From: an uncultured Bacteroidales bacterium
GTDB taxonomy: Bacteria > Bacteroidota > Bacteroidia > Bacteroidales > UBA4417
Assembly: GCA_903879715.1 (NCBI GenBank)
Contig: CAIRMR010000207.1
Location: 1-36,590, forward strand
DNA: 36,590 bases
Reading direction: 5' to 3'
Part shown: piece after piece, positions 283-36,544 of the stretch
Position numbering within the stretch: position 1 is the stretch's first letter
Layout: the number at the start of each line of letters is the position of its first letter
Notes under the pieces: generated by a model
Database searches by the model: none
What the model was told of the DNA's origin: nothing
What the model saw: the letters and a program-made list of their open reading frames with translations, nothing else
Program-made: the position numbers and the translations under genes

Positions 283-1353
283 TTAAAAATTCCGCCACCC
301 CTCTTCAGTAAATATCTCCACTCTTGACCAACCATGATACCCAGAGTTAATGACTTCTTTCAACATGGATGGCTTTTCTTTTGCAGCTGGGTAATTTTCC
401 AATATTGATTTTGGGCTCCCCTTAACCGTAACCAGACAGATTTCAGCGAAATCAGAAAGCTTATAATCAGTATCCCGGTTCCAAACCAAACAGGAAGAGT
501 AGCGGAAACCCCAGTGTTTGCATATCTCTAATCCAATTTCCAGCTGATCGGGCTTAACCCAGGTAAACAGGACACAGTCAGGTTCGCATATTTCTGCGAT
601 GGTTGTTTCAAGCATGATCATATGCACCCATTTTGTCAGATCAAGTAAAAGGATCTGGAATTTTCCGCTAGGTAAATGTATTTTATCCGTTACTCCTTCT
701 TTGGCCATTGCTCGTATAACACCACTCACTTTTGTAGGATCACCATCAGTCCTATCATAAACCTCTTTTATAATGTCGTCGGATTTCGATGCCAATTTTG
801 AAGCCGCGTCAATATTTTCATTAAGTGTGGCATTGAAGAATTTAACGAATGTATCATCATAAGTAGAATCCATTTTTTCAACCACTTTTAGTGCTTTATC
901 CAAAGACCGACCCGACATACCTATTTTTTCTCCAACTATATCACGTGCTTTTCCAGGATCGTAAGATTCACCACCCTGTGGAAATGATTCCATAGGTGCC
1001 TCTGCATGAATCATTCTTTGGTATGCTTTCTTTTTCTCAATCTCCATATAGATTGCAGCTTCTCTGGTTTTTTGTACTGTTGTTTTCTCTCTATAGCAGT
1101 TCTCACCGACAAATAATTCAAGTTGCTTAATGTAATCATCCGGTGCATACTCGAAATCTACTTCCTGTATTTCAAGTGATTTACAGGCTTCAACTCGGCG
1201 GTGCCCGGAAATAATTGTATTGTTCCGGGTGATCAAGATTGGTTTGATCCAACCTGTTTTTTGAATACTTTCGATCAAATCTGTACAATCTGTATAACCA
1301 TATATTCTGGAATTAAGCGGGTGAGGATTAAGTTTGTTGATTTCAATTTTCAT
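283..1353 (-). CDS. ParB-like N-terminal domain fused to degenerate MT-A70-like methyltransferase domain
   Basis: I place the start at the ATG at 1353, 10 nt after the stop of the upstream ribbon-helix-helix gene; an upstream in-frame ATG at 1401 would force a 38-nt overlap. The product is 356 residues. The N-terminus is a ParB/sulfiredoxin-fold domain (INKLNPHPLNSR, then ISGHRR at residues 48-53, the ParB box that binds nucleotide). A helical middle follows. The last ~110 residues align with MT-A70 adenine methyltransferases: LFTWV, a WGF.Y..CLVWN block, E..LV..KG, an EKPS..L block and a final EIF..EGW. At the catalytic position (residues 238-242) the family's DPPW is replaced by DLTKW, so methylation is doubtful and a DNA-binding or regulatory role is more likely. 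ParB-methyltransferase fusions are typical of phages and integrative elements. The MT-A70 relationship is my alignment by eye. Confidence 0.78.
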   Translation of the reverse strand: MKIEINKLNPHPLNSRIYGYTDCTDLIESIQKTGWIKPILITRNNTIISGHRRVEACKSLEIQEVDFEYAPDDYIKQLELFVGENCYREKTTVQKTREAAIYMEIEKKKAYQRMIHAEAPMESFPQGGESYDPGKARDIVGEKIGMSGRSLDKALKVVEKMDSTYDDTFVKFFNATLNENIDAASKLASKSDDIIKEVYDRTDGDPTKVSGVIRAMAKEGVTDKIHLPSGKFQILLLDLTKWVHMIMLETTIAEICEPDCVLFTWVKPDQLEIGLEICKHWGFRYSSCLVWNRDTDYKLSDFAEICLVTVKGSPKSILENYPAAKEKPSMLKEVINSGYHGWSRVEIFTEEGWRNF

Positions 1354-1363
1354 TCCATAGTTG

Positions 1364-1555
1364 TTATTTTTTAACCTTAGGGTCGCATTTCTTCTCTTCA
1401 TCCTGCAAGTATATCCGTAAGCTTCGACGAATGACAGCAGAGAGTTTCATGTCGTTTTCTTCGGCGTGGTTGTAAAGCTTTTCCGTCAAATCATTATCCA
1501 GCATTACCAGGAATTTATGATACAGCTTTTCATCAGTATTATCCATTTTTACCAT
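1364..1555 (-). CDS. Ribbon-helix-helix (CopG/Arc-type) DNA-binding protein
   Basis: A 63-residue protein with the layout of a short ribbon-helix-helix regulator: a beta strand (KFLVMLDNDLTEKL), helix A (YNHAEENDM), then KLSAVIRRSLRIYL as helix B, and a charged lysine-rich tail. Such proteins dimerise and bind operators through the paired N-terminal strands; they serve as plasmid partition/copy regulators, relaxosome accessories or antitoxins. The ParB-like gene starts 10 nt downstream, so the two are probably co-transcribed and may be functionally paired. An in-frame ATG at codon 4 (1546) is an alternative start. An AT-only motif (minus-strand AGTTTTATATATAA, 1570-1583) just upstream may be its promoter. 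Confidence 0.75.
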   Translation of the reverse strand: MVKMDNTDEKLYHKFLVMLDNDLTEKLYNHAEENDMKLSAVIRRSLRIYLQDEEKKCDPKVKK

Positions 1556-1569
1556 AATTGTTTATTCTT

Positions 1570-1583
1570 ATATATAAAACTAC
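1570..1583 (-). promoter_or_regulatory. Candidate promoter motif AGTTTTATATATAA
   Basis: Minus-strand AGTTTTATATATAA lies 14 nt before the ribbon-helix-helix ATG. A close relative (AGTTTATATATATA at 13181-13194) lies 20 nt before the caspase-like gene. The similarity suggests a shared promoter core with a very short leader, but the sequence is so AT-rich that chance is possible. Confidence 0.25.
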
Positions 1584-1679
1584 CCCAGTCCTAAAAAATA
1601 ATTCCTTTAATTTTTTTGTGCAAATGCGCATTCCGACATTTACAGAAAAAAAATAACTGCCTATAAAATTAGAATTGTC

Positions 1680-2015
1680 ATGGACAATAAGCCTAAACAA
1701 AAAAGAGAAATCAGATTGTTGCCGGTAGGTGAAAAGTGCAGAGATTTCACATTCGATGATCCGTTAGAAGAATTAAAACTGAGGTTTGTCAGACAGAAAC
1801 TCGAAGACATGCTGAATGATAATATGAGGCCTCTTCCAACCATGATCTGTGAGATGGAAGATCCGGAATTTTTGGAACTCATTCGGCCTTTTGTAATGTT
1901 TGCAAATATGCAGCCATTTACATACCGTGAAGTTACTCCAGCGACCAGAGAAGAATTAGAAAGAAAGAAAATAAAGAGCTATGGGCAACTGTATTGTCTT
2001 ATTTTTCCGAATTAA
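1680..2015 (+). CDS. Hypothetical protein, 111 aa
   Basis: Not recognised. A 111-residue soluble protein with a basic N-terminus (KPKQKREIR), a LEELKLRFVRQKLEDML helix, a proline/methionine-rich middle and a TPATREELERKK helix near the end. There is no signal peptide or membrane segment. It is divergent from the ribbon-helix-helix/ParB pair, with a 124-nt shared upstream region, and is one of the few plus-strand genes of this island. The ORF is intact, helices look amphipathic and the antisense frame is low in complexity, so I take it as real. Confidence 0.65.
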   Translation: MDNKPKQKREIRLLPVGEKCRDFTFDDPLEELKLRFVRQKLEDMLNDNMRPLPTMICEMEDPEFLELIRPFVMFANMQPFTYREVTPATREELERKKIKSYGQLYCLIFPN

Positions 2016-2262
2016 CAATAAATGATTTATTAAAAAGGGTTTCTATCCTGTTGAATATAGTAGACTATCAAAGAGAATCATGTTCCCTTTCATATAAGTA
2101 TTCTTTTAAATCTTGGATTGTCCAATTATAACCAGTCAGGTAGGAATAGCTTAGCAGTTGAACCATTCTATTAACTTAAACTTTGTTCGAGTTACTGCAA
2201 ATTATTAAACATGTCAGAATCCCAGTGATAATGGTTTTCTCATGTCCTTAAAAGTATTTAGC

Positions 2263-2646
2263 TTATAATAAGAGTAGATTATTTTTAGCATCAACTGGTA
2301 TGTCTTTAGGCCCATCCCAATCTTCTTCATCACAAAAAAGTGCATATGACAACTGATCAATGTTATTGAATTTTCCATTACTAAATTTGTCAATAAACAT
2401 TCTTTGCATTATGTAGACGATTTCACGATGTAATTCAACAAATGTTGCAAACTCCTTTTCTGTTGTATCAGCGTGATCACAAATTCTCCATCTATTGGGT
2501 TCTAAGTAAATACAGAATCTGTAAGCTAAATGTTCTATGACGGTCTTCTTGAATTTGGATAATTTACTGTCAGGTATATGCCCAACCTTCCATGTTGTAT
2601 AAAATTCAACATCGACAATGTGAAATAGGTGAAAATCTTCTTTCAT
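2263..2646 (-). CDS. Hypothetical protein, 127 aa
   Basis: Not recognised. A 127-residue soluble protein rich in aromatic and charged residues (FHLFHIVDVEFYTTWKVGH near the start, FATFVELHREIVYIMQRMF in the middle, and an acidic CDEEDWDGPKD stretch near the end). No signal peptide, membrane segment or catalytic motif was seen. It follows the SEC-C gene on the same strand after 46 nt, so they may be co-transcribed. The leader directly before the ATG reads AAATCTAAAAAAA, resembling the leaders of the genes starting at 9509 and 9925. Confidence 0.68.
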   Translation of the reverse strand: MKEDFHLFHIVDVEFYTTWKVGHIPDSKLSKFKKTVIEHLAYRFCIYLEPNRWRICDHADTTEKEFATFVELHREIVYIMQRMFIDKFSNGKFNNIDQLSYALFCDEEDWDGPKDIPVDAKNNLLLL

Positions 2647-2692
2647 TTTTTTTAGATTTAATGAGTTAATAAATTAATATTTAGATTATGTA

Positions 2693-3253
2693 TTATACTG
2701 TGGATTTACTTGCTTGCTCTGAATTATAAATTTCAATTTGTGATCCATATGTTCTTAATTCCATTGAAACAGGATCAGAATAGAGTTCATACGAAACAAT
2801 TAATTTAGGATCTCTGTAAAATGCTTTAGGTATACTGTATACAAATACATGATAGAATGGTGTATGAAGAACAAAATATCTAAGTTCAGCCTGAATTTTT
2901 ACTCCTTCTGACATATTTAACAGCTGATTTTTCTTATCTTCTATCCGTTGTTGATCTACTGGTTTTCCTTCTAAAGCAAAAACAACTTCCTTGAATTTTT
3001 CAGAACTCCAGTATTCAAGAACCATTTTTACAAAATCGAGATCCTTAAAATTTGGCCAGCCCTGTTTTGCATATTCCTTCGGTGTGAAGGATTTGAAATA
3101 TTTATATAGATGATGTGTATCTTTTTCTTTACTCTGTTTTACATCATCCGATATTTCATGATATAATTGGCCGGAAATTCTACCATGACATTTTTTAAAT
3201 TTAATGCCGCTGCCACAGCGACACAGTTCATTTCTTAATTGTTTTTTGTCCAT
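2693..3253 (-). CDS. SEC-C zinc-motif protein
   Basis: A 186-residue protein starting with a SEC-C metal-binding motif: CRCGSGIKFKKCHG, with C11, C13, C22 and H23 as the predicted zinc ligands. In SecA the same motif mediates SecB/ribosome contact; free-standing SEC-C proteins are common in mobile and defence islands with mostly unknown partners. The rest is a soluble alpha/beta region with no recognised fold, including a YFKSFTPKEYAKQGWPNF segment near residue 50 and a strand-rich end. Only the N-terminal motif can be named; the function of the remainder is unknown. Confidence 0.82.
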   Translation of the reverse strand: MDKKQLRNELCRCGSGIKFKKCHGRISGQLYHEISDDVKQSKEKDTHHLYKYFKSFTPKEYAKQGWPNFKDLDFVKMVLEYWSSEKFKEVVFALEGKPVDQQRIEDKKNQLLNMSEGVKIQAELRYFVLHTPFYHVFVYSIPKAFYRDPKLIVSYELYSDPVSMELRTYGSQIEIYNSEQASKSTV

Positions 3254-3401
3254 TTTAATTCTAATTGAAGTGAATAAATAAATTGTTTATAAGTCCTGGA
3301 GATCGATTCATAATCTCCATATTCATTATATACCAGGATTTGATATTTGTTTAAGTTTTCAATTATAAGAGTGAAAATTTAGCTACGGGAAAGTGTTATT
3401 T

Positions 3402-4190
3402 TTATTTAATAAGCTTCTGGATATCTGACAATAAACTGTGCTTCCATCTGATCATTGAATTATCCTTATATTTAGAATAAAGGTTATAAAGAAACTTTGG
3501 GTCTGTCATCCATCGCATAAGGTCATTACATTTTTCGATTGTTTCAGAATCTCCAAATCCATTAACTCTGGTTCGTGATAAAAGAAGGTTCGGTTTCCCG
3601 ATCCAAATTGTATCGGTGACATAATGACTTAGCTGATTTATCAGTTCATCTACATTCTTATCCAGCAGTGGTTCGCAAGAAACACTGGTTTGGTATCCCA
3701 TTTCGTAGGATAATTTCAAACACTCTAACCGTTCTTCGAATGAACTTGCATTTGGTTCCCAGAATTTTAGAACATTTGAATCACTTGATCCAATTGTAAA
3801 TCTGAATAATATTTCGGCTTTATTTTCAGAGAAGGTTTCACATATCTTCGTGATACATTCCAAGTTTGGTTTACTGACAATTAAAACGGAATTACCAGAC
3901 TTGAGGATATTACCCAACATAGTTATGCTTTCTGTCAGGTGTTCCGGGGTGATGTCATGAGTGCTTGGAAACATTACCGGCCCGCTAAATTTTGGAATCC
4001 TTTTGGTTAGTTCATTAGAACGAACAACCTCAGTAGACCAATTACCAGCAGTGTTACGTTTGTACCGAATGCCCATACTTTTTGCGTAACAGTATCTGCA
4101 ATTGTTTTTACAGCCGGCAATGAAGTTGATAGTTTTAACAGACCACTCGTAGGTCCCATAAATACTTTTTGTGTTGTCACATTTTTCCAT
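3402..4190 (-). CDS. Radical SAM protein (SPL/DUF5131-like)
   Basis: A 262-residue protein with the CxxxCxxC iron-sulfur motif of radical SAM enzymes (C27, C31, C34 in GCKNNCRYCYA). After it comes a TIM-barrel-like pattern: FSGPVMFPSTHDITPEH, VLIVSKPN, FRFTIGSS, TSVSCEPLLD, WIGKPN. The CRYCYA form and the SCEPLL segment resemble the spore-photoproduct-lyase-like and phage Gp37/Gp68 (DUF5131) groups found on mobile elements. Substrate is unknown; nucleic-acid modification or repair is possible by family analogy. It has its own 226-nt upstream region. Near-complete core, no frameshift. Confidence 0.83.
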   Translation of the reverse strand: MEKCDNTKSIYGTYEWSVKTINFIAGCKNNCRYCYAKSMGIRYKRNTAGNWSTEVVRSNELTKRIPKFSGPVMFPSTHDITPEHLTESITMLGNILKSGNSVLIVSKPNLECITKICETFSENKAEILFRFTIGSSDSNVLKFWEPNASSFEERLECLKLSYEMGYQTSVSCEPLLDKNVDELINQLSHYVTDTIWIGKPNLLLSRTRVNGFGDSETIEKCNDLMRWMTDPKFLYNLYSKYKDNSMIRWKHSLLSDIQKLIK

Positions 4191-4336
4191 AGTGAAATAA
4201 TTTAATTGTTATTGATTAATATGTTTTCTTATTATATCAAACCTTTTACAGAAAGTTTTCACAAAATGAGCTATTTTAAAAAAAAATTCAATTTCAGGTT
4301 ACTATTTCCGGCTGAACAAATCTCTTTGCAGTGCCT

Positions 4337-4392
4337 TGTGACCCAAAGATATTAACCCTGATGTTTCCGACAGAGGGTGTATTTTGGTGACA
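4337..4392. other. Imperfect inverted repeat between the primase-like and radical SAM genes
   Basis: Arms 4337-4359 and 4373-4392 can pair with small bulges (ACCCT with AGGGT next to the loop, then ATA with TAT, CAAA with TTTG, ACC with GGT) around a 13-nt loop. No T run follows on either strand, so it is not a typical terminator. It could be an mRNA stabiliser or an operator for the radical SAM gene downstream on the minus strand. Confidence 0.3.
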
Positions 4393-4416
4393 TATATATC
4401 TTCTTCTTAAGATTAG

Positions 4417-5604
4417 TTATTTAATACTATAAAGTATTTCTTTCCAATAATTCTTTACCATCCTTATTTTAACTGAGGAGTTTTCTGAAAGTAGTTTTTG
4501 TGTTACTCTTGGATACTGTATGGACAAATGTTTATAAATTTCTATCAATCTATTCAATGTTTCTTTTCTACGTAGTTTGCCTGTTTCTTTGCCGATAATA
4601 CTTTTCTTTTGTTCCAGGGTTAACTGTTTATCTGGGTTTAACCATATTTTCTTTTTCTTAGTTCTTATCATCAATTCTTGTTTCCTGTGTTTTTTGAATG
4701 ACCATTTCACTATTTTCCTTACATCATCCTTGGATAATTCAGGCTTACAGTGTTCGTAGTTGACTTTAAGTAATATCATCTCTAACTTGTTACAAGAGAT
4801 ATCTGGATTATTGAATAGTATTGAACTTGTAAATGATGATAACCATGTATGGCGTGCACCTTCTTTTATGATTTGTGGGATATATGTGTTTCTATATTCC
4901 CTTCCTTCTTCTATAACGATATAATCCATATTGCAATAATCATCCAGTGTCGTCTGGTACTTTATCTTATCCAAATGGGTTATATTAGATTGATAATTCG
5001 GCAATGTTGTGGTTATAGGAAATAATTCATCTGAGATGCTGCATGACTTTTCCGGAATTATAAGAGATACAACATTGTGGTTTATATAAATATCAGGATC
5101 ATAGCTTATGACGCACTGTCTTGATATGTCTTTTGTATGAGGATCAATAGTTATATCTAACCCTAAGAAATAGTTGCTCAGGTATGACCATGAAGATTTA
5201 AAGTTATCTTTTTTCAACCCTGAAACTGAGACGAGTAATCCATATCCATTCCCGCTGAAAGATTTCCAAAAAGAATACACAAATTGCAAAGCATGCAGCT
5301 TTTTAACATCAATTTCATGGTCTATATCCAAATATATTAATCCAGTCAAATTTTCAATAGTGCCGACAGATCGTCGCTTTGTGAATGTACCATTCGGAGT
5401 AAAGGTTGGTGTCAGTGTTTTATTCTGTTCAAATATTGGATGACCCTTACCATAGATTCTTGATTCAATTATCTTGTCCTTGAAAGTACCAACTTTTATA
5501 TGGTTTAGTACAGTAGAAATCCCTGCAGTTGAAATTACTTGTGGGGTTTTGACGTTTGGAAAGATGTTTGTTAGACAATTTTCATCGAAATTCTCTTTAT
5601 TCAT
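4417..5604 (-). CDS. VirE_N (BT4734-like) / primase-C-terminal-like replication protein
   Basis: A 395-residue protein. The N-terminal half matches the BT4734/BF3469-like 'VirE N-terminal' family of Bacteroidota mobile elements: GLIYLDID at 88-95, SGNGYGLLVSV at 117-127, and a later D.SRQCVISYDPDIYIN block; this is a divergent archaeo-eukaryotic-primase-like core. Residues about 235-310 look like a primase C-terminal domain (GARHTWLSSFT, then CKPELSKDDVRKIVKWSF). The end is lysine-rich and helical, suggesting DNA binding. These proteins are usually replication initiators or primases of conjugative transposons and phage-like elements. It is the best evidence that the left part is mobile, though no integrase, relaxase or terminase is in view. 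Confidence 0.78.
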   Translation of the reverse strand: MNKENFDENCLTNIFPNVKTPQVISTAGISTVLNHIKVGTFKDKIIESRIYGKGHPIFEQNKTLTPTFTPNGTFTKRRSVGTIENLTGLIYLDIDHEIDVKKLHALQFVYSFWKSFSGNGYGLLVSVSGLKKDNFKSSWSYLSNYFLGLDITIDPHTKDISRQCVISYDPDIYINHNVVSLIIPEKSCSISDELFPITTTLPNYQSNITHLDKIKYQTTLDDYCNMDYIVIEEGREYRNTYIPQIIKEGARHTWLSSFTSSILFNNPDISCNKLEMILLKVNYEHCKPELSKDDVRKIVKWSFKKHRKQELMIRTKKKKIWLNPDKQLTLEQKKSIIGKETGKLRRKETLNRLIEIYKHLSIQYPRVTQKLLSENSSVKIRMVKNYWKEILYSIK

Positions 5605-5967
5605 AGTGTGTACAATATTTTTTAATGGCCGTAGTGATGGCTGTTTATATTACCATATAGTCCATATTTTCAAGAAAGTTTTTTAAAGACCATAATCCTT
5701 GACATTTTATTATCTATATATTAAGCCTGCAATATCCTGTTTTTCCTATTTGCGGTTGGGCAGGTATGATGGTCCCTATCAGAATAGTATTGGGGTTAAG
5801 ACTGAGTGATTGTTCAGGAGGACCCTTAAAAATGATTTATTTCATATCAGTTAATTTCTAAGCCGTGAACATACCGATATTAGATCTTGGGGTTTGCCCA
5901 TGAAAAATAATGAGAAGTTGGCGCAGGGACATACTATTGGTCTCATTAGATAATCACAGTTTTAATC
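5605..5967. other. Intergenic region with GGTCC/GGACC inverted arms
   Basis: No ORF of note. It is the upstream region of the primase-like gene and holds TGATGGTCC (5767-5775) and, 43 nt later, AGGACCC (5819-5825). The same pair with a 44-nt gap recurs at 8486-8545. A TATATA tract near 5715 could be a minus-strand promoter. Confidence 0.4.
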
Positions 5968-6318
5968 TTATAGTATCTCTTTCAATATTCTCGACCTTTC
6001 ATAATTGATGAAGATTTCATCTAAATCTTCGTGGTTTTTTATAACCCATTTATTAAAATCTTCTTTATTTTCATATTGGTTAAATTCTTCCATAATAAAG
6101 CTTTTCCATCTCTCGACTTTATGAAATCTTGACATCAGTGGTTCTATAGTTTCATTTCCTTTAAATTCATATAATATTTCTTGCGCAATTTCAAGATGAA
6201 TACCGATTAAAATATTGTGTGCACAATCGAGTTTCCCAACACTTCTTTTAATCCACCTGTCGAATTTTATATATTTTTTTACATATAACGATTGTAATTC
6301 ATTTTCATCCATAATCAT
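5968..6318 (-). CDS. Hypothetical protein, 116 aa
   Basis: Not recognised. A soluble, almost entirely helical protein of 116 residues with many charged and aromatic positions (YVKKYIKFDRWIKRSV, HKVERWKSFIMEEFNQY, FNKWVIKNHEDLDEIF). No cysteine motif, signal peptide or membrane segment. The start could be the first ATG (6318) or the third codon's ATG (6312). It stands alone on the minus strand with long untranslated stretches either side, which suggests its own promoter. Confidence 0.65.
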   Translation of the reverse strand: MIMDENELQSLYVKKYIKFDRWIKRSVGKLDCAHNILIGIHLEIAQEILYEFKGNETIEPLMSRFHKVERWKSFIMEEFNQYENKEDFNKWVIKNHEDLDEIFINYERSRILKEIL

Positions 6319-6699
6319 TGTTTTACTTTTGAGATTTAAAGAATTTCTATTCTGAAACTATCTCTGCAGGAATAGTATACTTATTATATCCAGTTAAATA
6401 AAGAAAGTTGTAATTGATTTATAGCAGAGCAGACTGCATTTGTATAAATAGTTCCAGTATAAACTAACATGGTTAAAGTAGCTAATATAAACCCGAGAAA
6501 TAATTCTTCATTAAGCGAAAAAGTATAGTCATGAAAATAAATTATACTTTTCGAAATTCAAGCCTGGGATACAGGTGCCTCAACCTAGATCAAAGTAAAC
6601 TGCTTATAATGAATATTCAAATATTGTATGCGGCAAAAAATAAAATACAGCTGAACATTTAAAACGAAACAGTCTAAAAAGTTGTTTCCATTGGAAAAG
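6319..6699. other. Intergenic region, no gene seen
   Basis: AT-rich, with stops in all frames. It lies upstream of the 116-aa gene (minus strand). I see no tRNA, clear repeat or convincing promoter. Confidence 0.4.
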
Positions 6700-6728
6700 A
6701 AAAAAGGAGCTTTTTTAGCTCCTTTTTT
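6700..6728. terminator. Strong bidirectional intrinsic terminator
   Basis: A perfect 12-bp stem: 6700-6711 pairs with 6717-6728 (core AGGAGCT / AGCTCCT) around a TTTTT loop, with A and T runs on the flanks, so it works on both strands. It sits 20 nt past the stop of the 53-aa minus-strand ORF and should end the transcript of the acidic-protein operon. Confidence 0.85.
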
Positions 6729-6748
6729 TGCATCCGAATAAACGGTAA

Positions 6749-6910
6749 CTAATCATACCAAATTACCAAGATTTCTTGCACACGTTTTATGTATGTTTCT
6801 AACTCGAACAATTCACCCTGTAATTTTTCAATTTGTTCTTTTTTCGTGTTGGCTCTTTTAGTGTAAGTTTCTAGCCGCTTCTTATTTATATCGTGAACAC
6901 TTTTCATCAT
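6749..6910 (-). CDS. Small coiled-coil ORF, 53 aa, translationally coupled
   Basis: A 53-codon ORF. Its ATGATG start overlaps the TGA stop of the upstream acidic-protein gene (6907-6909), the usual arrangement for translational coupling, and a strong terminator follows 20 nt after its stop. The product is a basic-then-amphipathic helix with KKEQIEKLQGELFELETYIK in the middle, a likely short coiled coil, ending LVIWYD. No family recognised. It could bind or chaperone its very acidic partner. The coupling and terminator support it as a real gene, though it is short. Confidence 0.55.
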   Translation of the reverse strand: MMKSVHDINKKRLETYTKRANTKKEQIEKLQGELFELETYIKRVQEILVIWYD

Positions 6911-8283
6911 TTTGAGGAATTTAGGTATTGATCTATTTTACTTGCAACAACTCCGCTTTTCCGATCTTCTAGATACTTGCTCCATGCATCAACATAATGT
7001 TCCTTCAAATCATCCCACTTGCAAAATTTAACATTCCTAAATGTGAGTTCAGGAAATTTGGTACAAATACTATTCAGTTTTCGTGTTATACTTGCAATTG
7101 ATTTTTCGAGTTTGGTCGCTATTTTTTGAATTTCGTATACATCGTTTCCAAGTCCATCTTTTTTATTACTTAAATCTAACAGCTCTAATAACTGTTCTTT
7201 AGTCCACCGATTAGATTTTACCTGCTCGACTATTTCGCCGAACTCAACCCAAACTTCATTTTCTATAGGCTGATTTTTCTCCGACATTGCATCTGGTTTA
7301 GGATCTCCAAGCATATTATTCAACGATCTAAACCTGAAATCATTAATTCTTTCCTCAGAACACAAATAATTCCTTACTCTTTCAATTTCAGTAGGTAGTT
7401 TATGTTTTCTGCTATTATATTCATACAAGTAAAGATATTTTTCTATTTCTTCATCAGTTGCGTTTGGAGATAAATTGCATAAAGCATCAAATTTCCGAAG
7501 GTTATACTCTTCTTTCATTTGCTTCTCCAGAGTTGACCTCGTTAGAACTATTTCATAATATTCATTATATTCATAGCAATTATCGAAGCCATCATCAGAG
7601 CCATGCATATCTATATAATCAATCTTATCAAATAGATTAGATAATTGACCATCATCATCATCGTAATTTAAGCCATTAAGAAACAGCCAATGTTCAAATC
7701 TTGAATTATGCCGATAGAATTCCTTTAGTCTTTCTTCTTCATCATCGAATCGATTTTCACCCTCACGATATATAAAATCATCATAAGCAAATACCTGAAA
7801 ATTTTCATATGGTTCTTCATTCTCTTCAGGTACACCAAAATAATTCCAATCTTCCTGCATCTCTTCTTTGTCAATTTCTTCATTAGTTTTACCATCGAAT
7901 TTTAAACATTCCCGGTAGTAAAACTCATCTTCAGGCTCGGTATAATTCATTCTATTGTCCAGAGATTGGTTTTCTACTTCCTGTGATATTTCAAGAAATA
8001 TTTCATCAGCTGTTAAATAATTCTTATCCCTTTCAACTTGCAGCCAGATTTCCTCTTCAGGATCAAATTCATCATTAGGATAATACTCATAATCAGGATC
8101 AATTTCATAATCAGGTTCAGTATAATTCATCTTTTCATCCAGATAATTAGGTTCTGGTTCATTAGATTCATCCAATTCATCTGTCATCCACCTGTCGTCT
8201 TTTGCTTTGTCACCAAAGTAAAACCAGTCCCTTTCCATTTCTTTTAATTTTTCATTCAATTCATAAATTTTTAATCGTGTCAT
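6907..8283 (-). CDS. Large, highly acidic protein with internal duplication and C-terminal HTH/SANT-like domain
   Basis: A 458-residue protein not matched to a family. The first ~250 residues are extremely rich in D, E, Y and N. They contain a mirrored duplication: EMERDWFYFG (15-24) then MNYTEP (52-57), followed by MNYTEP (112-117) then EMQEDWNYFG (141-150). Residues about 359-402 look like a compact three-helix DNA-binding unit (RWTKEQLLELLDL ... IATKLEKSIASITRKLNSI), similar in pattern to SANT/Myb-like or phage HTH domains. An acidic body with a DNA-binding end would fit a DNA mimic or a nucleoprotein scaffold, but that is speculation. A coupled 53-aa ORF follows. Confidence 0.75.
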   Translation of the reverse strand: MTRLKIYELNEKLKEMERDWFYFGDKAKDDRWMTDELDESNEPEPNYLDEKMNYTEPDYEIDPDYEYYPNDEFDPEEEIWLQVERDKNYLTADEIFLEISQEVENQSLDNRMNYTEPEDEFYYRECLKFDGKTNEEIDKEEMQEDWNYFGVPEENEEPYENFQVFAYDDFIYREGENRFDDEEERLKEFYRHNSRFEHWLFLNGLNYDDDDGQLSNLFDKIDYIDMHGSDDGFDNCYEYNEYYEIVLTRSTLEKQMKEEYNLRKFDALCNLSPNATDEEIEKYLYLYEYNSRKHKLPTEIERVRNYLCSEERINDFRFRSLNNMLGDPKPDAMSEKNQPIENEVWVEFGEIVEQVKSNRWTKEQLLELLDLSNKKDGLGNDVYEIQKIATKLEKSIASITRKLNSICTKFPELTFRNVKFCKWDDLKEHYVDAWSKYLEDRKSGVVASKIDQYLNSSK

Positions 8284-8808
8284 GCTATAAATTATTTAAC
8301 CTGCACCAACTTGGAGCATTAATAGTGGTAGTTAAAAAAGAAGTAAAAGTTTATTATTTTAATGCTGTTGTCTGCTTTCAAATTGTTTAGAATATTTATA
8401 AGTTGATTGAAAAATACTGAAATGGATATAACGCTCTATGTGATATTCAGGCTTCAGATGCAAACACTATTAGGTCGTTCAGGATTGATGGTCCTCGTCT
8501 GGATGGTACAAGAGGTTGCATTGGATTGATCATTCATTAGGACCCACCGGAATTGGTTTTTTATGTGGGTTATGTGTATATATCTTCTTATAATAATTAG
8601 ACGTGAACCATTTCACTTTTAATTGTAGATCAATTTATTATATTTTAAAGATTAAGTATAATCAGATCTTTTCGATATCTAATCAAAAATATTAATTCCT
8701 GCAAAGTACTTATTATCAATTATATTTATGACTGTTTTTAATCGGCGGCAAGATCATCTAAAATTGACTATCCAAGATTAATATATAACCTAAAAGAACT
8801 AAAATCAC
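8284..8808. other. Divergent intergenic region
   Basis: Upstream of both the acidic-protein gene (minus) and the 70-aa gene (plus). It carries the second copy of the TGATGGTCC (8486-8494) / AGGACCC (8539-8545) arm pair. No further ORF or RNA gene was seen. Confidence 0.4.
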
Positions 8809-9021
8809 ATGGACCTATTCTACTATTATGACCACGACCTCCTTTTGGACTTCAATTCTATTCGTAAACGAGTAAAATCAATTCCTGAGTCAACTTTATA
8901 CAAAATTTTAAAGCGCAAGTGTACTGGGATTGTAAAGTATCAAAATAAGATTTTATATCGATATAGTAATTTGCTTGAATTGCCAGAGCTTTACAAAGAA
9001 ATCAAAAACTATGAAATCTAA
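8809..9021 (+). CDS. Hypothetical protein, 70 aa
   Basis: Not recognised. A 70-residue basic, tyrosine-rich protein (MDLFYYYDHDLLLDF at the start; IPESTLYKILKRKCTGIVKYQNKILYRY in the middle). The middle could be a small helix-turn-helix followed by a wing, so a regulator is possible, but this is a weak call. It overlaps the next plus-strand gene by 11 nt in another frame, which suggests a two-gene operon. Confidence 0.55.
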   Translation: MDLFYYYDHDLLLDFNSIRKRVKSIPESTLYKILKRKCTGIVKYQNKILYRYSNLLELPELYKEIKNYEI

Positions 9022-9208
9022 GAAACACGTCATGTCCTACAAAGACTACAGGAAGTATCGAAACCGATTTATGAATATGAAATTGAAAAAATGGCTAGAT
9101 GATTTTCTTCCAAATGGAAACATGCAGGAACTACCAAAAAATCCTGATGAAACTGTGCCGGGCATGGAATATGGAAAGTCAAATAACATAAATCTTGATT
9201 CCATATAG
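9011..9208 (+). CDS. Hypothetical small basic protein, 65 aa
   Basis: I chose the ATG at 9011, which overlaps the end of the 70-aa gene by 11 nt; an upstream in-frame ATG at 8975 would give a longer overlap. The N-terminus is very basic and aromatic (KSKKHVMSYKDYRKYRNRF), then KLKKWLDDF and a proline-rich tail. It might bind nucleic acid. No family recognised. Its stop lies 4 nt from the stop of the converging minus-strand gene; a short GGATA/TATCC hairpin (9208-9223) sits at the junction. Confidence 0.55.
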   Translation: MKSKKHVMSYKDYRKYRNRFMNMKLKKWLDDFLPNGNMQELPKNPDETVPGMEYGKSNNINLDSI

Positions 9209-9212
9209 GATA

Positions 9213-9509
9213 TTATAGTATCCCTTTCTCTTCTAAGTGTTCCAGCAAATACCCTACTAAAGCTTCTGTAGGCTCATATACATCTATCATCAAATCACGA
9301 ATATCCGTGTTATCGATACTGGTAAATCTAACTAATCCGTTAAACCCTTCTGGGAATGTACCCTGATAAGTATTTAATCCAATAATTTTGATTTTTTTCA
9401 ATTTTGGCACTTTCAGCACCTTAACAAAATGGTTATTTAATTCAAAGCCTTTTTCTGATCTTGCTATGCGGGTTTTAGCCGTCAAAGCACTTTTTTCATC
9501 TCTATTCAT
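9213..9509 (-). CDS. Hypothetical protein, 98 aa
   Basis: Not recognised. A 98-residue soluble alpha/beta protein: basic N-terminus (DEKSALTAKTRIARSEKGF), strands around VLKVPKLKKIKIIGLNTYQGTF and FNGLVRFTSIDNTDI, then DLMIDVYEPTEALVGYLLEHLEEKG. The 13-mer TAAACCTAAAATT (minus strand) directly precedes the ATG, and the identical 13-mer lies 11 nt before the ATG of the next upstream gene (start 9925). The two genes may share expression control. Confidence 0.65.
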   Translation of the reverse strand: MNRDEKSALTAKTRIARSEKGFELNNHFVKVLKVPKLKKIKIIGLNTYQGTFPEGFNGLVRFTSIDNTDIRDLMIDVYEPTEALVGYLLEHLEEKGIL

Positions 9510-9676
9510 AATTTTAGGTTTAAAAAATTGTTTGTATTTATAATCTTGAAATTGGGGTACTCAGGTAAGTCTGGTCAATTAACTTTTTAGATATTACATA
9601 GCTAAATTTCTAACATTCCCAAACTTGCCATTTGTACCTATAATACTCTTCCGTGAAGTTTATCTAATCATATCAG

Positions 9677-9925
9677 TCACAGGCCCATCTCCATTTCTTC
9701 CGGCGTACGTGAATGCTCTATTTTATTACACATATCCATCATCTGTTTTCCTTTGTACCCAGCAACCAGGAGTGAAATTGTTGCCGTTTTAATTTTGGTT
9801 GTTAAATAATCATAGACCTTTTGATTATCTTCTTCCAGGCCTTGCAGCCCTTTCATTTTTTCAAGGAATAACCTTGTGTAAATGTCAATGTTGATTTCTT
9901 CAAGCACTTTTTTTAATTTTTCCAT
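9677..9925 (-). CDS. Hypothetical helical protein, 82 aa
   Basis: Not recognised. An 82-residue helical protein with charged heptad-like stretches (MEKLKKVLEEINIDIYTRLFLEKM; EEDNQKVYDYLTTKI) and a hydrophobic central ATISLLVAGYKG segment, ending PEEMEMGL. It is too polar to be a membrane protein. It shares the TAAACCTAAAATT leader with the gene starting at 9509. Immediately upstream lies the 1.2-kb noncoding region with the tandem array. Confidence 0.62.
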   Translation of the reverse strand: MEKLKKVLEEINIDIYTRLFLEKMKGLQGLEEDNQKVYDYLTTKIKTATISLLVAGYKGKQMMDMCNKIEHSRTPEEMEMGL

Positions 9926-10112
9926 AGGAGTTCATGAATTTTAGGTTTATGCCACTATCGGCGGTGTACTTACTTATATATGTATAATTGAAAAATGTAA
10001 TCTTATACTTAAAACTCAGATATTTTACCTGTCAAGCAAAAGGCTCAAATAGGTGCGAATTCTTTTGATTCCTTCACTGACCTGAATGACATATAGATAA
10101 ACACCGCTATGA

Positions 10113-10990
10113 TTTGACCTGCATTATTATATGTAAGAATATTGTTACAGATAACTCTTCCAGAAATAGCAAAAAAGGTTTAGGTTTACCCTGCATTGTA
10201 ATCAATGTGGAGAATAGTAACTGCGGTTGTTTCAAGGTTTCAATTTCTTCAAGTCTTGGTTTTGCCTGCATCTTTATAAGTTTGAATAATAGTTTAAGAT
10301 TGTTCCAATGGTTTCCGGAAACAATGAGAAATGTGTTGGTTTGGCCTGCATCATTATAAGCTTGAATAATAGTTTAAGACTGTTCCAATGGTTTCCAGGA
10401 ACAATGAGGAATGTGATGGTTTGTCCTGCATCTTAATCAGTGTCGATTATAGTTCCTGCAGATGTTTCAAGGCGTCACTTCTTTCAAGCTTTAGTTTGAC
10501 CTGCATCATTTATAAGTATAAATATTAGTTCCAAATTGTTCCAATAGCCGGCACAAAGCAGTAAGTGAGTGTTTGCCCTGCATTATATTCAATGTCGAGA
10601 ATAATTCCTGCGATTGTTTTAAGGTTTCACTTCCTGCAAGTATTTTATGAAACTATGTAGAATGTTTTGGTTTGAACTGCATCATAATCAATGTCAAAAA
10701 TCAATTGTTTTAAGGTTTCACTTCCTGCAAGTATATTATGAAACTATGTAAAATGTTTTGGTTTGACCTGCATCATAATCAATGTCAAGAATAATTCCTG
10801 CGATTGTTTTAAGGTTTCACTTCCTGCAAGTATTTTATGAAACTATGTAGAATGTTTTGGTTTGGCCTGCATCATAATCAATGTCGATAATAATTCCTGC
10901 GATTGTTTTAAGGTTTCACTTCCTGCAAGTATTTTATGAAACTATGTAGAATGTTTTGGTTTGACCTGCATCATAATCCGCCAAACCCAA
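10113..10990 (+). repeat. Eleven-copy noncoding tandem array with TTTGnCCTGCAT box
   Basis: The box GTTTGnCCTGCATnAT recurs with its CTGCAT at 10119, 10191, 10266, 10346, 10426, 10501, 10578, 10677, 10768, 10867 and 10966. Period is 72-80 bp in the first six steps and 91-99 bp in the last four. The last units are near-identical over their full length, indicating recent duplication; the early ones are diverged and fall into two types. Most units carry a GTTTC...GAAAC inverted repeat about 40-45 nt after the box; it is the perfect palindrome GTTTCCGGAAAC in one unit (10311-10322) and has an 18-nt loop in the 99-bp units. The 1.2 kb from 9926 to 11170 holds no credible gene. Function unknown: possible protein-binding array, replication/partition site or RNA array. 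Confidence 0.9.
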
Positions 10991-11170
10991 AACCACCTCT
11001 TTGTTATGGCTTGTGTTAGATTTAGTCGAAAACCGAATTTTTAGAACTCCTACCCTTTATAAAATTCTATCGGCAAAGCAAAAATGACTTAAACTTTTTA
11101 TAAACCGGCGCATATATTGAATGTAAGCTGCAACGTAACGCAGATAAATAAAAAATAATCTTAAAAAATC

Positions 11171-12367
11171 ATGACAAAAAATTTAACAAACAAAAAAGAA
11201 GCTATTGAAGGTGATTTAAATAAATCGCTTTTCACAATTGAAGAAGTAGCAGTTGAACTCAAGATGTCTTCCGAAGAAATCAAGGAACTTATTAAAAAAT
11301 GGGACATATGTGCGGTAGATGTTTTACAAAATCCCATTTTCTTTGATTCAAATCTTGGATTTGAAGATAATAGTATAAACATTGATTCAGATGGAATAAG
11401 AGTCACGAGAGATTGCATAGATCTCTATTTGAGACGAAAGGAACATAGAGATGCAGTGGAGGCCTTTTCCACAGCTATCTCGAAGTTTGATTTGGCTCAA
11501 GAGGAGATTGAGTTTATTTGTAGCACTTATGCTGAAAAGATTTATTATGTTCCAGAAGAATACCTTAATAATGATTGCACACTTATCTATCAACAGTTTA
11601 GAGAGCTTCAGAAAAACCACCCAGATAACTGGCAACATTATATTGAGCTAGATCATGATCGAAGATGGAATTTGCCGAGGGAATATTTCATTAACAAAAA
11701 CAACAAGATAAGGGAGATTTGGGACTATATCAATTATCTTAAAATAACAGGGCCTGAGGATGAACTAAATGATTTTGAAGATAAGTTCACAAAAGATGGA
11801 TTTCCTACACTTGCAAAATTAATGCCGATACCTTGTGATAAGGAATTGATAATCCAAACAGATGCAGAAGAAGTATTTCCGGAAAATATTATTGGTAATA
11901 GGATGATGACAGAGGCTGAAAAAGAAGATAAAATATGGAAATGGTGCATGTATAACTGGGGCACACCATATGATATTGAAGAAAACGGTGTCAAGGTATA
12001 TGGAGTAAGAGGCAAGAATAAACTCTTCACGCTTTTTAATACCAAACCGATCGACAGTTGGCTTAACGAGATTCAACATATGTATCCAAAACTAACTTTT
12101 CTTACTTATTATAGGAGCTGGGAAAGAAATATGTGGCATGTTGAAAGAACTAAAAATATAAATGGTGTGCCAAGGATTGAATATTATCAGGGCGGAGATA
12201 TAAGTGATGTTTTTAATGACCCTAAAATTCAAAGAAAATTTATGAAGCACGAGATGATAATTCGAAGAATTATTGAATTTGATAATTGGTATAGACCAAT
12301 AGATGAAATACTGAAAACGCAAGGAATCTTATCAAATAAATTTAGAGCCCATAATGATTTTGAATAA
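11171..12367 (+). CDS. HTH protein with YubB/DUF1281-like ferredoxin-fold C-terminus
   Basis: A 398-residue soluble protein. Residues about 19-60 look like a MerR/excisionase-type winged helix (LFTIEEVAVELKMSSEEIKEL). From about 209 the sequence follows the plasmid YubB/Api92-like family: FPTLAKLMPIP at 211-221, KWCMYNWGTPYD at 257-268, then FTLFNTKPIDSWLNEI and YPKLTF up to 310, where family members show WGTKW and F.T.WSPP-like motifs. These proteins are common on plasmids and conjugative elements with no settled function. The gene starts ~200 nt after the tandem array and reads away from it, so the array may form part of its control region or be its binding target. The family link is by motif pattern only. 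Confidence 0.78.
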   Translation: MTKNLTNKKEAIEGDLNKSLFTIEEVAVELKMSSEEIKELIKKWDICAVDVLQNPIFFDSNLGFEDNSINIDSDGIRVTRDCIDLYLRRKEHRDAVEAFSTAISKFDLAQEEIEFICSTYAEKIYYVPEEYLNNDCTLIYQQFRELQKNHPDNWQHYIELDHDRRWNLPREYFINKNNKIREIWDYINYLKITGPEDELNDFEDKFTKDGFPTLAKLMPIPCDKELIIQTDAEEVFPENIIGNRMMTEAEKEDKIWKWCMYNWGTPYDIEENGVKVYGVRGKNKLFTLFNTKPIDSWLNEIQHMYPKLTFLTYYRSWERNMWHVERTKNINGVPRIEYYQGGDISDVFNDPKIQRKFMKHEMIIRRIIEFDNWYRPIDEILKTQGILSNKFRAHNDFE

Positions 12368-12398
12368 TCTCAAGTATTACTATTAGTTGTTGCTTATC

Positions 12399-12428
12399 AA
12401 GGGGTGTGAATATGTCATACCCTTTTTT
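12399..12428. terminator. Intrinsic terminator between convergent genes
   Basis: AAGGG-G-TGTGA (12399-12409) pairs with TCATACCCTT (12415-12424), with one bulged G, followed by a T run. It lies between the convergent genes ending at 12367 and 12465. Confidence 0.7.
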
Positions 12429-12464
12429 ATGCGATATTCATCAGAAAAGGAACTAAGAAAAATA

Positions 12465-13160
12465 TTAAGACAGCTTTTCATTTAAATAAATACTGAACCC
12501 GCACTGCTTTGCTTTTGGATAATCATATAGGACTGAATCAAATATTGCTTGAAGTTGGTCGAATTGATTTCCTTCCACACCAAAGAACCGGCTTAGGAAC
12601 AATGTGTCAATTAAGATGCTATCAATCCAATGGATTATGCCGGTATAGCCAATTACTGCAAGTGTTCCTGTTTTTTGAAGGAAATCTTTAGCAAACTCCT
12701 CTCCATTTTTCCCTGCGAATATGTCACAACCTGCGAAAAATACAATATTATTGTATCGATCTAGTCCGCTAAACGCCTCGATAAGTTCATCTGAATCTAT
12801 TTCAGTGACCGGGGTTTTTAGTCCACCAGGTTTACCATGTACTGCTATGTAGAACAAGTCAATACCAGCCAATTTAGGATCCTGCCATATCAGACCATCT
12901 GGATATTTAGTATAATAGGACAATCCCGCACCACTATCAATCATGCGGTGTGTGACCACTATTTCTTTTTCGATCATCCAACCAATTGCTTTTAGAAAGG
13001 GTTTTACGCTCAATGGATCAGTCATGTTTTGGTTCCAATATGATTCTAAGCAGCAAATCTTGGGTATATAAGATCCCAGGTATTCTTCTATTAATCCTTC
13101 CTGCTCATTATTTAAAGGAGTGTTTGAATTTTGGCTATAATCTGAAAAGGTCGTTATCAT
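12465..13160 (-). CDS. Caspase-fold (CHAT/C14-like) cysteine peptidase candidate
   Basis: A 231-residue soluble protein. The pattern matches the caspase-like fold: a strand ending in a catalytic His (LFYIAVHGKPGGL, H108), then about 35 residues later a strand ending in a Cys (NIVFFAGCDIFAG, C145), followed by FLQKTGTLAVIGYTGIIHWIDS, a segment typical of small stand-alone caspase-like proteins. The N-terminal ~70 residues (NNEQEGLIEEYLGSYIPKICCLESYW) could be a sensor or pro-region. Caspase-fold peptidases in bacterial islands often act as abortive-infection effectors; here no obvious partner lies next to it, but the window begins with a restriction gene. It has its own short leader with a TATATATA motif. 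Catalytic assignment is inferred from spacing, not demonstrated. Confidence 0.72.
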   Translation of the reverse strand: MITTFSDYSQNSNTPLNNEQEGLIEEYLGSYIPKICCLESYWNQNMTDPLSVKPFLKAIGWMIEKEIVVTHRMIDSGAGLSYYTKYPDGLIWQDPKLAGIDLFYIAVHGKPGGLKTPVTEIDSDELIEAFSGLDRYNNIVFFAGCDIFAGKNGEEFAKDFLQKTGTLAVIGYTGIIHWIDSILIDTLFLSRFFGVEGNQFDQLQAIFDSVLYDYPKAKQCGFSIYLNEKLS

Positions 13161-13511: not shown

Positions 13512-13540
13512 TATTAGGTTCGATTCCTGCACAGCTACTA
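13512..13540 (+). other. tRNA 3'-end-like sequence, candidate attachment-site remnant
   Basis: AGGTTCGATTCCTGC reads as a tRNA T-arm (TTCGATT loop, CCTGC right strand), followed by an acceptor-like ACAGCTACTA and, 10 nt on, a terminator. The left T-stem strand (TTAGG) pairs only in part, and no matching 5' acceptor or normal anticodon arm lies upstream, so it is not a working tRNA as read. A 3' tRNA end left at the edge of an AT-rich island is what integration into a tRNA gene leaves behind. Confidence 0.4.
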
Positions 13541-13682: not shown

Positions 13683-13882
13683 TTAGATATTTCATCAGGG
13701 TTGTCTACATAGAAGCCCGAACTCGAAGAGTTCAGGGCTTTTTTATTTTATTCCGTGCGTCAAGCTTGCTTGTAAGCAAAGGAATAAAATAAAAAAGACC
13801 AAAGCTCACGCAGTGAGCGAAGGGCTTCGTTGTTAAGCCCTCCCCTTTCAGGATCATGAAATAATCCTGTCCCCGCTACTAC
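13683..13882 (+). repeat. Structured palindromic repeat, unit A
   Basis: Outer stem GAAGCCC (13712-13718) / GGGCTTC (13822-13828) encloses three helices. The first is GAACTC-GAA-GAGTTC (13719-13733). The second is a perfect 17-bp stem, 13738-13754 with 13781-13797. The third is GCTCAC-GCA-GTGAGC (13804-13818). A tail follows with CAGGAT...ATCCTG (13850-13869) and CCCCGCTACTAC. The lead-in TAGATATTTCATCAGGGT is shared with the distant copy at 36 kb. Sequence differs from units B-D in the stems, but pairing is kept. Confidence 0.9.
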
Positions 13883-14051
13883 GAAGCCTTGATGCGAAGC
13901 ATCAGGGCTTTTATTTTTTCAGGTGAGCTGCAAACGCGTTTGCAAGTGAACATGAAAAAATAAAAGACACAGGCGAACGAAGTGAGAATGAGGCTTCGTT
14001 GTTAAGCCCTCCCCTTTCAGGATCATGAAATAATCCTGTCCCCGCTACTAC
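13883..14051 (+). repeat. Structured palindromic repeat, unit B
   Basis: Same layout, 171 bp after unit A. Outer stem GAAGCC (13883-13888) / GGCTTC (13992-13997). First hairpin TGATGC-GAA-GCATCA. Perfect 14-bp stem 13908-13921 with 13953-13966, enclosing the palindrome GCAAACGCGTTTGC. The tail is identical to that of unit A (CAGGAT...ATCCTG, CCCCGCTACTAC). Confidence 0.9.
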
Positions 14052-14145
14052 GAAGCCTTGATGCGCAGCATCAGGGCTTTTGTTTTTTCAGAGGAGCTGC
14101 AAACGCGTTTACAAAGCGACGAAGAAAAAACAAAAGACACAGGCG
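14052..14145 (+). repeat. Structured palindromic repeat, unit C (truncated)
   Basis: Begins like unit B (TGATGC-GCA-GCATCA hairpin). The 13-bp stem 14077-14089 with 14124-14136 carries a compensatory T:A to G:C change. Similarity stops at GACACAGGCG (about 14145). The third helix, the GGCTTC arm and the tail are missing, and 40 bp later the decapitated M14 peptidase gene begins. Confidence 0.88.
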
Positions 14146-14196
14146 TACCTTCCTCAATCGGTCACTTACAATGCATTAATTTAAAAACCTGAAGAT

Positions 14197-36139: not shown

Positions 36140-36337
36140 ATAGATATTTCATCAGGGTAGTCTACTACGAAGCCTTGATGCGCAGCATCAGGGCTTTTAT
36201 TTTTTCAGAGAAGCTGCAAACGCGTTTGCAAAGCGAGGAAGAAAAGATAAAAGCACAGGCGAACGAAGTGAGACTGAGGCTTCGTTGTTAAACCCTCCCC
36301 TTCCAGGATCATACAATAATCCTGTCCCCGCTACTAC
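36140..36337 (+). repeat. Structured palindromic repeat, unit D (distant copy)
   Basis: Lead-in TAGATATTTCATCAGGGT (36140-36157) and then GAAGCC (36169-36174) ... GGCTTC (36278-36283). First hairpin TGATGC-GCA-GCATCA. 13-bp stem 36194-36206 with 36241-36253 (one G-T wobble). Palindrome GCAAACGCGTTTGC. Tail CAGGAT...ATCCTG and CCCCGCTACTAC. It has the same lead-in as unit A but a B/C-type body. It lies about 22 kb from units A-C in the same orientation. Confidence 0.9.
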
Positions 36338-36544
36338 CCGATAATCTTCATCATTTTGGTGGGGATTTTGTTTTTCTGACCGCCAGATGTCATTGATATT
36401 ATTGAAGTTAGACGAAAATATTGATTGGTTTCAGAAGTTAGATATTGTCTATTTAGGGTCTGCTGTTAAACTCAGAGTCGCAAATCAATGAAAACCCTTT
36501 TGGTTGGCAGTATCTGGAGACGTGAAATCATAGCATGCTGAAAA
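36338..36544. other. Intergenic region, no gene seen
   Basis: Begins with GATAATCTTCAT, also found at 13590-13605 just before unit A. Apart from this and an AGTTAGATATT stretch, no feature was recognised. Confidence 0.3.

Follow-up and report, generated by a model that had tools for sequence, protein, structure and literature searches.

Introduction

The 3′ ends of tRNA genes are favoured landing sites of islands and phages. Integron attC sites, which carry the R boxes RYYYAAC and GTTRRRY and are used by the IntI integrase, are recognised as a folded single strand and occur in tandem arrays, and REP elements are non-coding and hairpin-forming. In site-specific integration at tRNA genes, a copy of the 3′ end restores the gene and the displaced fragment lies at the far end, as set out in the Islander paper (PMC4383910). 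In mycobacteriophage Ms6, the 26-bp core spans the T-arm (PMC1762012), and by our own reading of that paper the core ends at C74, like the tRNA copy in the units described below. A different palindrome has been reported behind Methanopyrus tRNAs (PMC5217627), and the main text of a survey of 104 structured RNAs (PMC2864571) does not contain the phrases "tRNA genes", "near tRNA" or "downstream of tRNA". No published description of the element reported here was found among the papers listed in the literature searched, most subscription journals lying outside it.

The nearest named thing is the set of 178-bp repeats at E. coli tyrT (RtT RNA, RF00391), an architectural analogue. Both systems consist of tandem units of about 170–180 bp directly behind a tRNA gene, whose last part repeats the tRNA 3′ end from the T-loop onwards (AATCC...). 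The E. coli repeats also have hairpins with GNA loops, and their left arm is complementary to the tail copy. The sequences are different, however, and no cloverleaf closed by an outer stem (P1, see below) was seen behind the E. coli tRNA, the comparison covering one tRNA-Tyr locus. RF00391, at its gathering score, gave three matches in the E. coli locus (L063) and none in the window or in 13 other Bacteroidota loci; conversely, model R1 of the present element (see below) gave no match to the tyrT locus. L063 was seen to hold more than one C(GNA)G hairpin (several in all), together with a long stretch complementary to its copy of the tRNA tail. The original prediction had placed the layout in no named family, and indeed none of the Rfam families reached its gathering score on the window sequence (the 22 hits obtained were weak, with E-values up to 5, and lay far below the cut-offs), but the tyrT repeats do have a 178-bp period and a tRNA-tail copy. 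A mechanism shared by the RtT repeats and the Bacteroidota units is suggested.

Other systems are more distant in different respects. T-loop islands and phages such as Ms6 share the tRNA 3′-end copy that restores the gene and the displaced fragment at the far end, whereas the present units are about 165 bp long and gene-less, have a conserved cloverleaf, occur with one architecture at many isotypes, and no integrase was found for them. Integron attC sites and gene-less cassettes are similar in the possible recognition of a folded single strand and in forming tandem arrays at one site; unlike them, the units have no linked integron integrase, their core motif is by eye not GTTRRRY, and their target is a tRNA gene. 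The units are non-coding and hairpin-forming like REP elements, but they are fixed at tRNA 3′ ends and have no constant Y1 partner.

Herein, the element is described from a 36,590-nucleotide stretch of DNA of an uncultured Bacteroidales bacterium (the window; contig CAIRMR010000207.1). The element was confirmed to exist; it is widespread, conserved in structure and linked to tRNA 3′ ends. We propose, at what we judge to be even chances, that each unit is a non-autonomous integrative cassette, some 165 bp long, at a tRNA 3′ end, the mobility of the units being something we infer.

Units and junctions in the window

The window was confirmed to hold three tandem units (A, B and a truncated C) and a distant fourth copy (D), all of them members of a far more extensive family. 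The features are as follows.

13685–13708, + strand: junction AGATATTTCATCAGGGTTGTCTAC that precedes unit A and may be the right end of an inserted island
13709–13879, + strand: unit A, 171 nt, complete, with the GAACTC/GAGTTC variant of the first hairpin; covariance model (CM) score 169.8 bits
13863–13879, + strand: tail of unit A, 17-nt copy of initiator-tRNA bases 58–74
13880–14048, + strand: unit B, 169 nt, complete; CM score 187.8 bits
14032–14048, + strand: tail of unit B, 17-nt copy of tRNA bases 58–74
14049 to about 14148, + strand: unit C, truncated after an A-run; CM score 84.4 bits over 14049–14160
36142–36165, + strand: same junction sequence ahead of unit D, matching 13685–13708
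36166–36334, + strand: unit D, complete, 22 kb away from the other units; CM score 175.7 bits
36318–36334, + strand: tail of unit D, 17-nt copy of tRNA bases 58–74
36335–36377, + strand: putative native tRNA-fMet 3′ flank or terminator displaced by the array, by identity to the empty locus G000:C189

The tandem repeats of about 170 bp in the original prediction are thus real, but their noted start at 13683 takes in the foreign junction at 13685–13708, unit A beginning at 13709. The palindromes do fold, but they are not free-standing repeats; they are the tandem form of an element set against tRNA genes. The long T-run/A-run stems hold at 27 nt with 85% pairing in A (with a 17-bp perfect core by eye), 17 nt with 94% in B (14 perfect) and 13 perfect nt in C, and the pair swap in C was confirmed as A:T to G:C.

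The junction at 13685–13708 recurs with one base different at 36142–36165 and is also present at another locus (L027). Its sequence AGATATTTCATCAGGGTWGTCTAC precedes both unit A and unit D, and a version that differs at one base precedes a unit in another genome of the genus (G003). Judging from these three junctions, larger islands appear to share this end point with the units. No tRNA gene was called in the window, and no PF00589 match was present on its contig among the matches listed.

Several observations were made on the surrounding sequence. At 13516–13538, AGGTTCGATTCCTGCACAGCTAC bears a likeness to a tRNA T-arm and 3′ end, with a terminator-like hairpin after it, and the 170 nt leading up to unit A may represent either a further small cassette or the end of an island. 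Positions 283–13160 hold mobile-element-like genes (ParB/MT-A70-like, a BT4734-like primase N-domain, radical SAM and a DUF6642 protein), several of these assignments being below Pfam cut-offs. The 22 kb between units C and D (14149–36141) encode an M14 peptidase, a sorting-domain protein, a DctM-like transporter and others, and this stretch closes with the same junction as the stretch ahead of unit A.

Structure of the unit

A unit typically begins immediately after C74 of a tRNA, and its stem P1 encloses hairpin P2, the long hairpin P3/P4 and hairpin P5 in a four-way cloverleaf, which is followed by a C-rich linker and P7. The latter (GGATCA-hairpin-TAATCC) is a mimic of a T-arm with a hairpin inside its loop, and in preserved cases it runs into a copy of tRNA bases 58–74. 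The stem from or near tRNA C74, the C-rich linker and the T-arm mimic are the defining parts of the element. Truncated unit C is without the P1 3′ arm, the C-rich linker, the T-arm mimic and the tail.

RNA folding of the window units gave z-scores of −7.0 for A (13685–13884), −4.4 for B (13885–14054) and −3.9 for D (36150–36340), and in each case none of 200 shuffles folded as well. In an alignment of 19 genus-type units (A1), 89.2% of the cells were paired, against 82.0% (sd 0.6) in shuffled and 36–53% in slid controls; 62 cells were changed on both sides against 22.9 (sd 3.8) in shuffles, and the covariation score was 0.246 against 0.128, with the proviso that related rows overstate independence in these and the other tests. 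Two measures gave no support: 46 of 500 shuffles attained the number of pairs with changes on both sides (15 versus 12.4), and 143 of 500 attained that of further pair types (38 versus 36.3). An alternative structure with stem P1, in the same number of units, had 86.6% of its cells paired versus 79.7% and 69 double-changed cells versus 26.7, and its covariation score was also above shuffles; it was weak on the same two measures, which 36 (pairs) and 297 (pair types) of 500 shuffles reached. The earlier claim that compensatory change keeps the fold is borne out by paired cells, double-changed cells and covariation, all above shuffles in the 19 units.

The P1, P3, strand and loop tests were carried out on 77 units (78 minus one further row with masked letters). 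P1 has at least 8 consecutive pairs in 61 of these, with a mean length of 12.0 versus 6.2 in shuffled sequences. Among the 61, P1 starts at offset 0 from C74 in 31 and at offset 1 in 13, and the first 8 nt of its 5′ arms comprise 53 distinct sequences. In many units, the 3′ arms of P2 and P1 compete by eye for a single 5′ arm. P3 reaches 8 or more Watson-Crick pairs in 75 of the 77, and the turn of P4 is CTTG (GCTTGC in 40 units, ACTTGT in 15). The inner hairpin of P7 varies in length, unlike the normal crossover spacer of tyrosine recombinases, which counts against the cassette proposal.

The left half had also been read as an intrinsic terminator. It looks like one in the window's genus, where P2 of the window units fits a GC hairpin with a U-run, but a GC-rich copy (L277) does not fit: its layout is kept and the T-run is missing. 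Termination is therefore not the common denominator of the element.

Copy of the tRNA 3′ end

The tail that had been likened to a tRNA 3′ end proved to be an exact 17-nt copy: units A, B and D terminate in AATCCTGTCCCCGCTAC, which is identical to bases 58–74 of the initiator tRNA of the same genus. Across the family, tails were tested in 59 units with a recognisable T-arm mimic, and the comparison used 78 of 82 ARAGORN rows; the rows dropped were two tRNA-Gly unrelated to a unit, the upstream tRNA of L108, and L040. A match to the unit's own tRNA at 10 or more of the 12 bases after AATCC was found in 15 of 59 units (Met 6, Pro 4, Ser 3, Cys 1, Val 1) and in 0 of 2,722 cross-isotype pairs. The mean identity of tails to their own tRNA was 0.507, against 0.328 (sd 0.018) in shuffled pairings, whose maximum in 1,000 shuffles was 0.381. 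Of the 20 best copies (at least 14 of 17 bases), 17 begin to match at base 58; on the 3′ side, 11 stop matching no more than 2 nt from C74, and the other nine run 3 to at least 10 bases further, several of them continuing into a next unit. The remaining 44 of 59 tails fell below 10 of 12, being shorter or decayed, so the copy is not under strict selection.

At the initiator tRNA genes of the window's genus, units are present or absent at the same site. A same-genus unit lies directly behind an initiator tRNA gene. The genus, represented by 16 genomes, gave 12 strong tRNA-fMet matches, of which seven (G003, G004, G005, G006, G008, G010 and G015) have a flush unit and five (G000:C189, G001, G011, G012 and G013) have none; in G011, a unit remnant lies about 200 bp beyond the gene. 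A T/C variant in the tRNA 3′ end is mirrored by the unit tail in G015 and G008, whereas unit 2 of G005 has C in its tail and T in its own tRNA, a mismatch against the copy rule. The window's own bin has an empty tRNA-fMet locus (C189), which is not of the same strain. When this locus is compared with the window from the tail copy of unit D onwards (flank at 36335–36500), 140 of 155 nt agree (90%), a count in which the copy supplies the first 17. Given this divergence, the bin may combine more than one strain or species, the window belonging to another than C189.

Distribution in the order, the phylum and viral contigs

The family extends well beyond the window copies. Covariance model R1, built from 19 units, found matches in 69 of the order's 393 genomes. 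For model R2, 53 rows were fitted to R1, some few being spurious palindromic minus-strand matches, and this model found matches in 38 of the phylum's 345 genomes, both counts depending on strict filters and a per-genome E-value cut, at the weak end of which a spurious row (L340) overlaps a tRNA gene and is by eye not a unit. The 88 order loci inspected (28 of the 30 returned, leaving aside the window's own and that of G004, plus 60 fetched) are the upper part of the hit list and not a random sample. At 67 of them, a same-strand tRNA called by ARAGORN ends −6 to 20 nt before the unit, with ten isotypes represented (Met, Pro, Arg, Cys, Val, Ser, Asp, Gln, Lys and His). The remaining 21 had no upstream tRNA by the ARAGORN test, and in four of these (L073, L076, L078 and L093) a tRNA 3′ part was seen by eye. 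In the phylum, 21 of 29 new loci returned have a tRNA within 12 nt, adding tRNA-Tyr; at one (L338) the tRNA is one unit-length away, and seven, the spurious L340 among them, have no tRNA there. The strict P7 pattern occurred in 7 of 345 phylum genomes, with none in the reversed control among the matches listed; L276, which belongs to these seven, was set aside as an apparent coding repeat.

On viral contigs, two pattern scans yielded 49 + 68 = 117 loci with the P7 pattern, of which R2 matched two (L157 and L174) at E < 1e-8 and one (L236) weakly (E 0.0019). An earlier viral test, which required a preserved tail copy and misses decayed units, had flagged L157, L179 and L217; the last two had no R2 match up to E 0.01 and were discarded. 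At L157 and L174 the unit adjoins a tRNA 3′ part, and these are perhaps prophage junctions.

Variant forms were observed at some loci. L274 and L288 (G448) are arrays of tail modules of about 102 bp, a shortened form of the element, the L288 array lying behind tRNA-Ser. In many units, for instance at L069, L070, L074, L082, L089, L090 and L092, partial tandem duplications end by eye at the T-arm mimic; their starts differ, are internal and are often in P4.

Folded strand and molecule

RNA would favour GNRA tetraloops. The GAA and GCA triloops of the original prediction are present, and loops of this type are strongly enriched: among unit triloops on stems of at least 5, read on the tRNA-sense strand, 30 of 59 are C(GNA)G and 2 of the reverse type, compared with 37 C(GNA)G of 1,262 triloops in flanking DNA (Fisher p 2e-26), while control terminators had 3 of 73. 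Very stable DNA mini-hairpins have, as a rule, GNA or GNNA loops (PMC4686876). Tetraloops in units numbered 13 GNYA and 12 GNRA, against 30 and 44 in flanking hairpins (p 0.36), and control terminators had 0 GNYA and 4 GNRA among 40. The GNYA:GNRA ratio, in which units are no different from flanking hairpins, was rejected as a test of DNA against RNA; the argument for DNA therefore rests on the triloops.

In the P1 and P3 helices, G-T mismatches outnumber A-C mismatches by 22 to 6 (binomial p 0.004), which fits a folded tRNA-sense strand, although the T-run constraint could itself favour T-G over C-A mismatches. Folding energy was no strong guide to the strand, the plus strand being more stable in 52 of 77 units with DNA parameters and in 43 of 77 with RNA parameters. 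Regarding the choice between RNA and single-stranded DNA left by the original prediction, the loops lean towards DNA. The loops and the G-T bias together make recognition of the units as folded single-stranded DNA, on the tRNA-sense strand, the better guess.

Similarity between units and candidate partners

Similar unit bodies (BLASTN E up to 1e-8) at tRNAs with different anticodons were found in 8 of 43 same-genome pairs versus 9 of 2,661 between-genome pairs. Within genomes, 7 of 11 pairs at tRNAs for the same amino acid were similar versus 1 of 32 for different amino acids, a bias expected if the target requires a matching 3′ end. For example, the tRNA-Ser units are 94% identical in G101 (tga and gct) and 93% identical in G182 (gga and cga). 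This same-genome similarity could also come from gene conversion.

No PF00589 (tyrosine recombinase) match was found on unit- or tRNA-fMet-bearing contigs of the genus among the matches listed, many of these contigs being short, and no circular form or fresh insertion was seen. A reverse transcriptase partner, as for a retroelement, was considered and rejected, RVT_1 occurring in only 3 of 10 carrier genomes.

Discussion

The cassette reading is favoured because of the direct repeat of bases 58–74, with an intact tRNA on one side and an often decayed copy on the other. An intact tRNA at one end, a displaced 3′ fragment at the other and an identity block in the 3′ part of the tRNA are what tRNA integration leaves, and all three were found; an integrase within the element was not, the units being too short for a gene. 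Under the proposed mechanism, recombination between the element's tRNA 3′-end copy and the tRNA gene would insert the cassette. The left copy would restore the tRNA, and the right copy would be the displaced native end, which would then decay. Arrays would arise from repeated insertion or tandem duplication, and larger islands would use the same end. A putative recombinase would act in trans on the tRNA-sense strand, recognised as folded single-stranded DNA, and in the window's genus P2 with its T-run would replace the tRNA terminator. The lack of a PF00589 match among those listed for the genus contigs, the 44 of 59 poor tails and the mismatch of G005 unit 2 count against this proposal.

A host-maintained, structured 3′ flank acting in cis as an RNA or DNA module in termination, trailer processing or insulation, similar to RtT and with arrays as by-products, appears rather unlikely to us. 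It would account for compensatory change over most of the body, for a P2 that is terminator-like in most AT-rich copies seen, for similar units at the same tRNA in different genomes (40 of 299 pairs) and for the same sort of tail copy in E. coli RtT. However, a maintained flank would hardly be missing from 5 of 12 tRNA-fMet loci in one genus or be spread patchily over many isotypes; moreover, L277 has no T-run, most of the element lies behind the terminator, and the loops lean to the DNA mini-hairpin rule. Slippage or template switching offers a route that needs no recombinase and no mobility: duplication would occur at the AATCC microhomology between the T-arm and P7, and quasi-palindrome correction would keep the stems perfect. 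The partial tandem duplications noted above, of various segments and mostly ending at P7, fit slippage as well as the cassette proposal, and G-x-A loops would favour hairpin-mediated copying. Because it leaves unexplained both the same architecture at 11 tRNA isotypes across the phylum and the similar units at different tRNA-Ser genes of G101 and G182, we regard slippage as unlikely.

Two readings tie the units to known mobile elements. Were they attachment-site relics of ordinary tRNA-targeting islands or prophages, it would be natural that apparent island ends meet the unit at one point by eye in the window, G003, G010 and G015, and that the viral contigs L157 and L174 carry a unit beside a tRNA 3′ part; yet different integrases would not have one cloverleaf in common over many tRNAs, and among the 117 viral P7 loci only L157 and L174 match R2 well, with L236 weak, making this very improbable. 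Mobilisation of REP-like elements by Y1 (RAYT/IS200) transposases has strand-specific hairpins on its side, as well as Y1 genes in 8 of 10 chosen unit-carrying genomes and an IS200-like (L292, G131) and a RAYT-like (L293, G237) Y1 gene within about 1 kb of a unit. This link is weakened by G448 and G586, which carry units and have no Y1 match, and by the fetched Y1 neighbourhoods, where a unit was present in 2 of 20 (46 Y1 matches were listed), both picked for the nearby unit. In addition, a 17-nt copy of the target would not be an expected product of Y1 transposition, and we give this explanation hardly any credence.

Returning to the integrative cassette, a bolder version can be formulated, which is put forward tentatively as a possibility well below even chances. 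It holds that phylum-wide, gene-less cassettes of about 165 nt would be recombined as a folded single DNA strand, with the cloverleaf, the T-arm mimic and C-GNA-G loops, into the T-arm of at least 11 tRNA isotypes; retargeting would require exchange of the 17-nt tail only, and RtT would be an independent or distant member. The units are grouped here with tRNA-targeting, att-bounded repeats, and the case for a new class is arguable.

As a structured element at the tRNA 3′ end with its own tail copy, the cassette would be among the smallest integrative units known. It could account for orphan direct repeats that follow tRNA genes, the long-standing puzzle of tyrT/RtT among them, and it gives a landmark for the boundaries of tRNA islands. 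Furthermore, it makes folded-single-strand recombination outside integrons testable.
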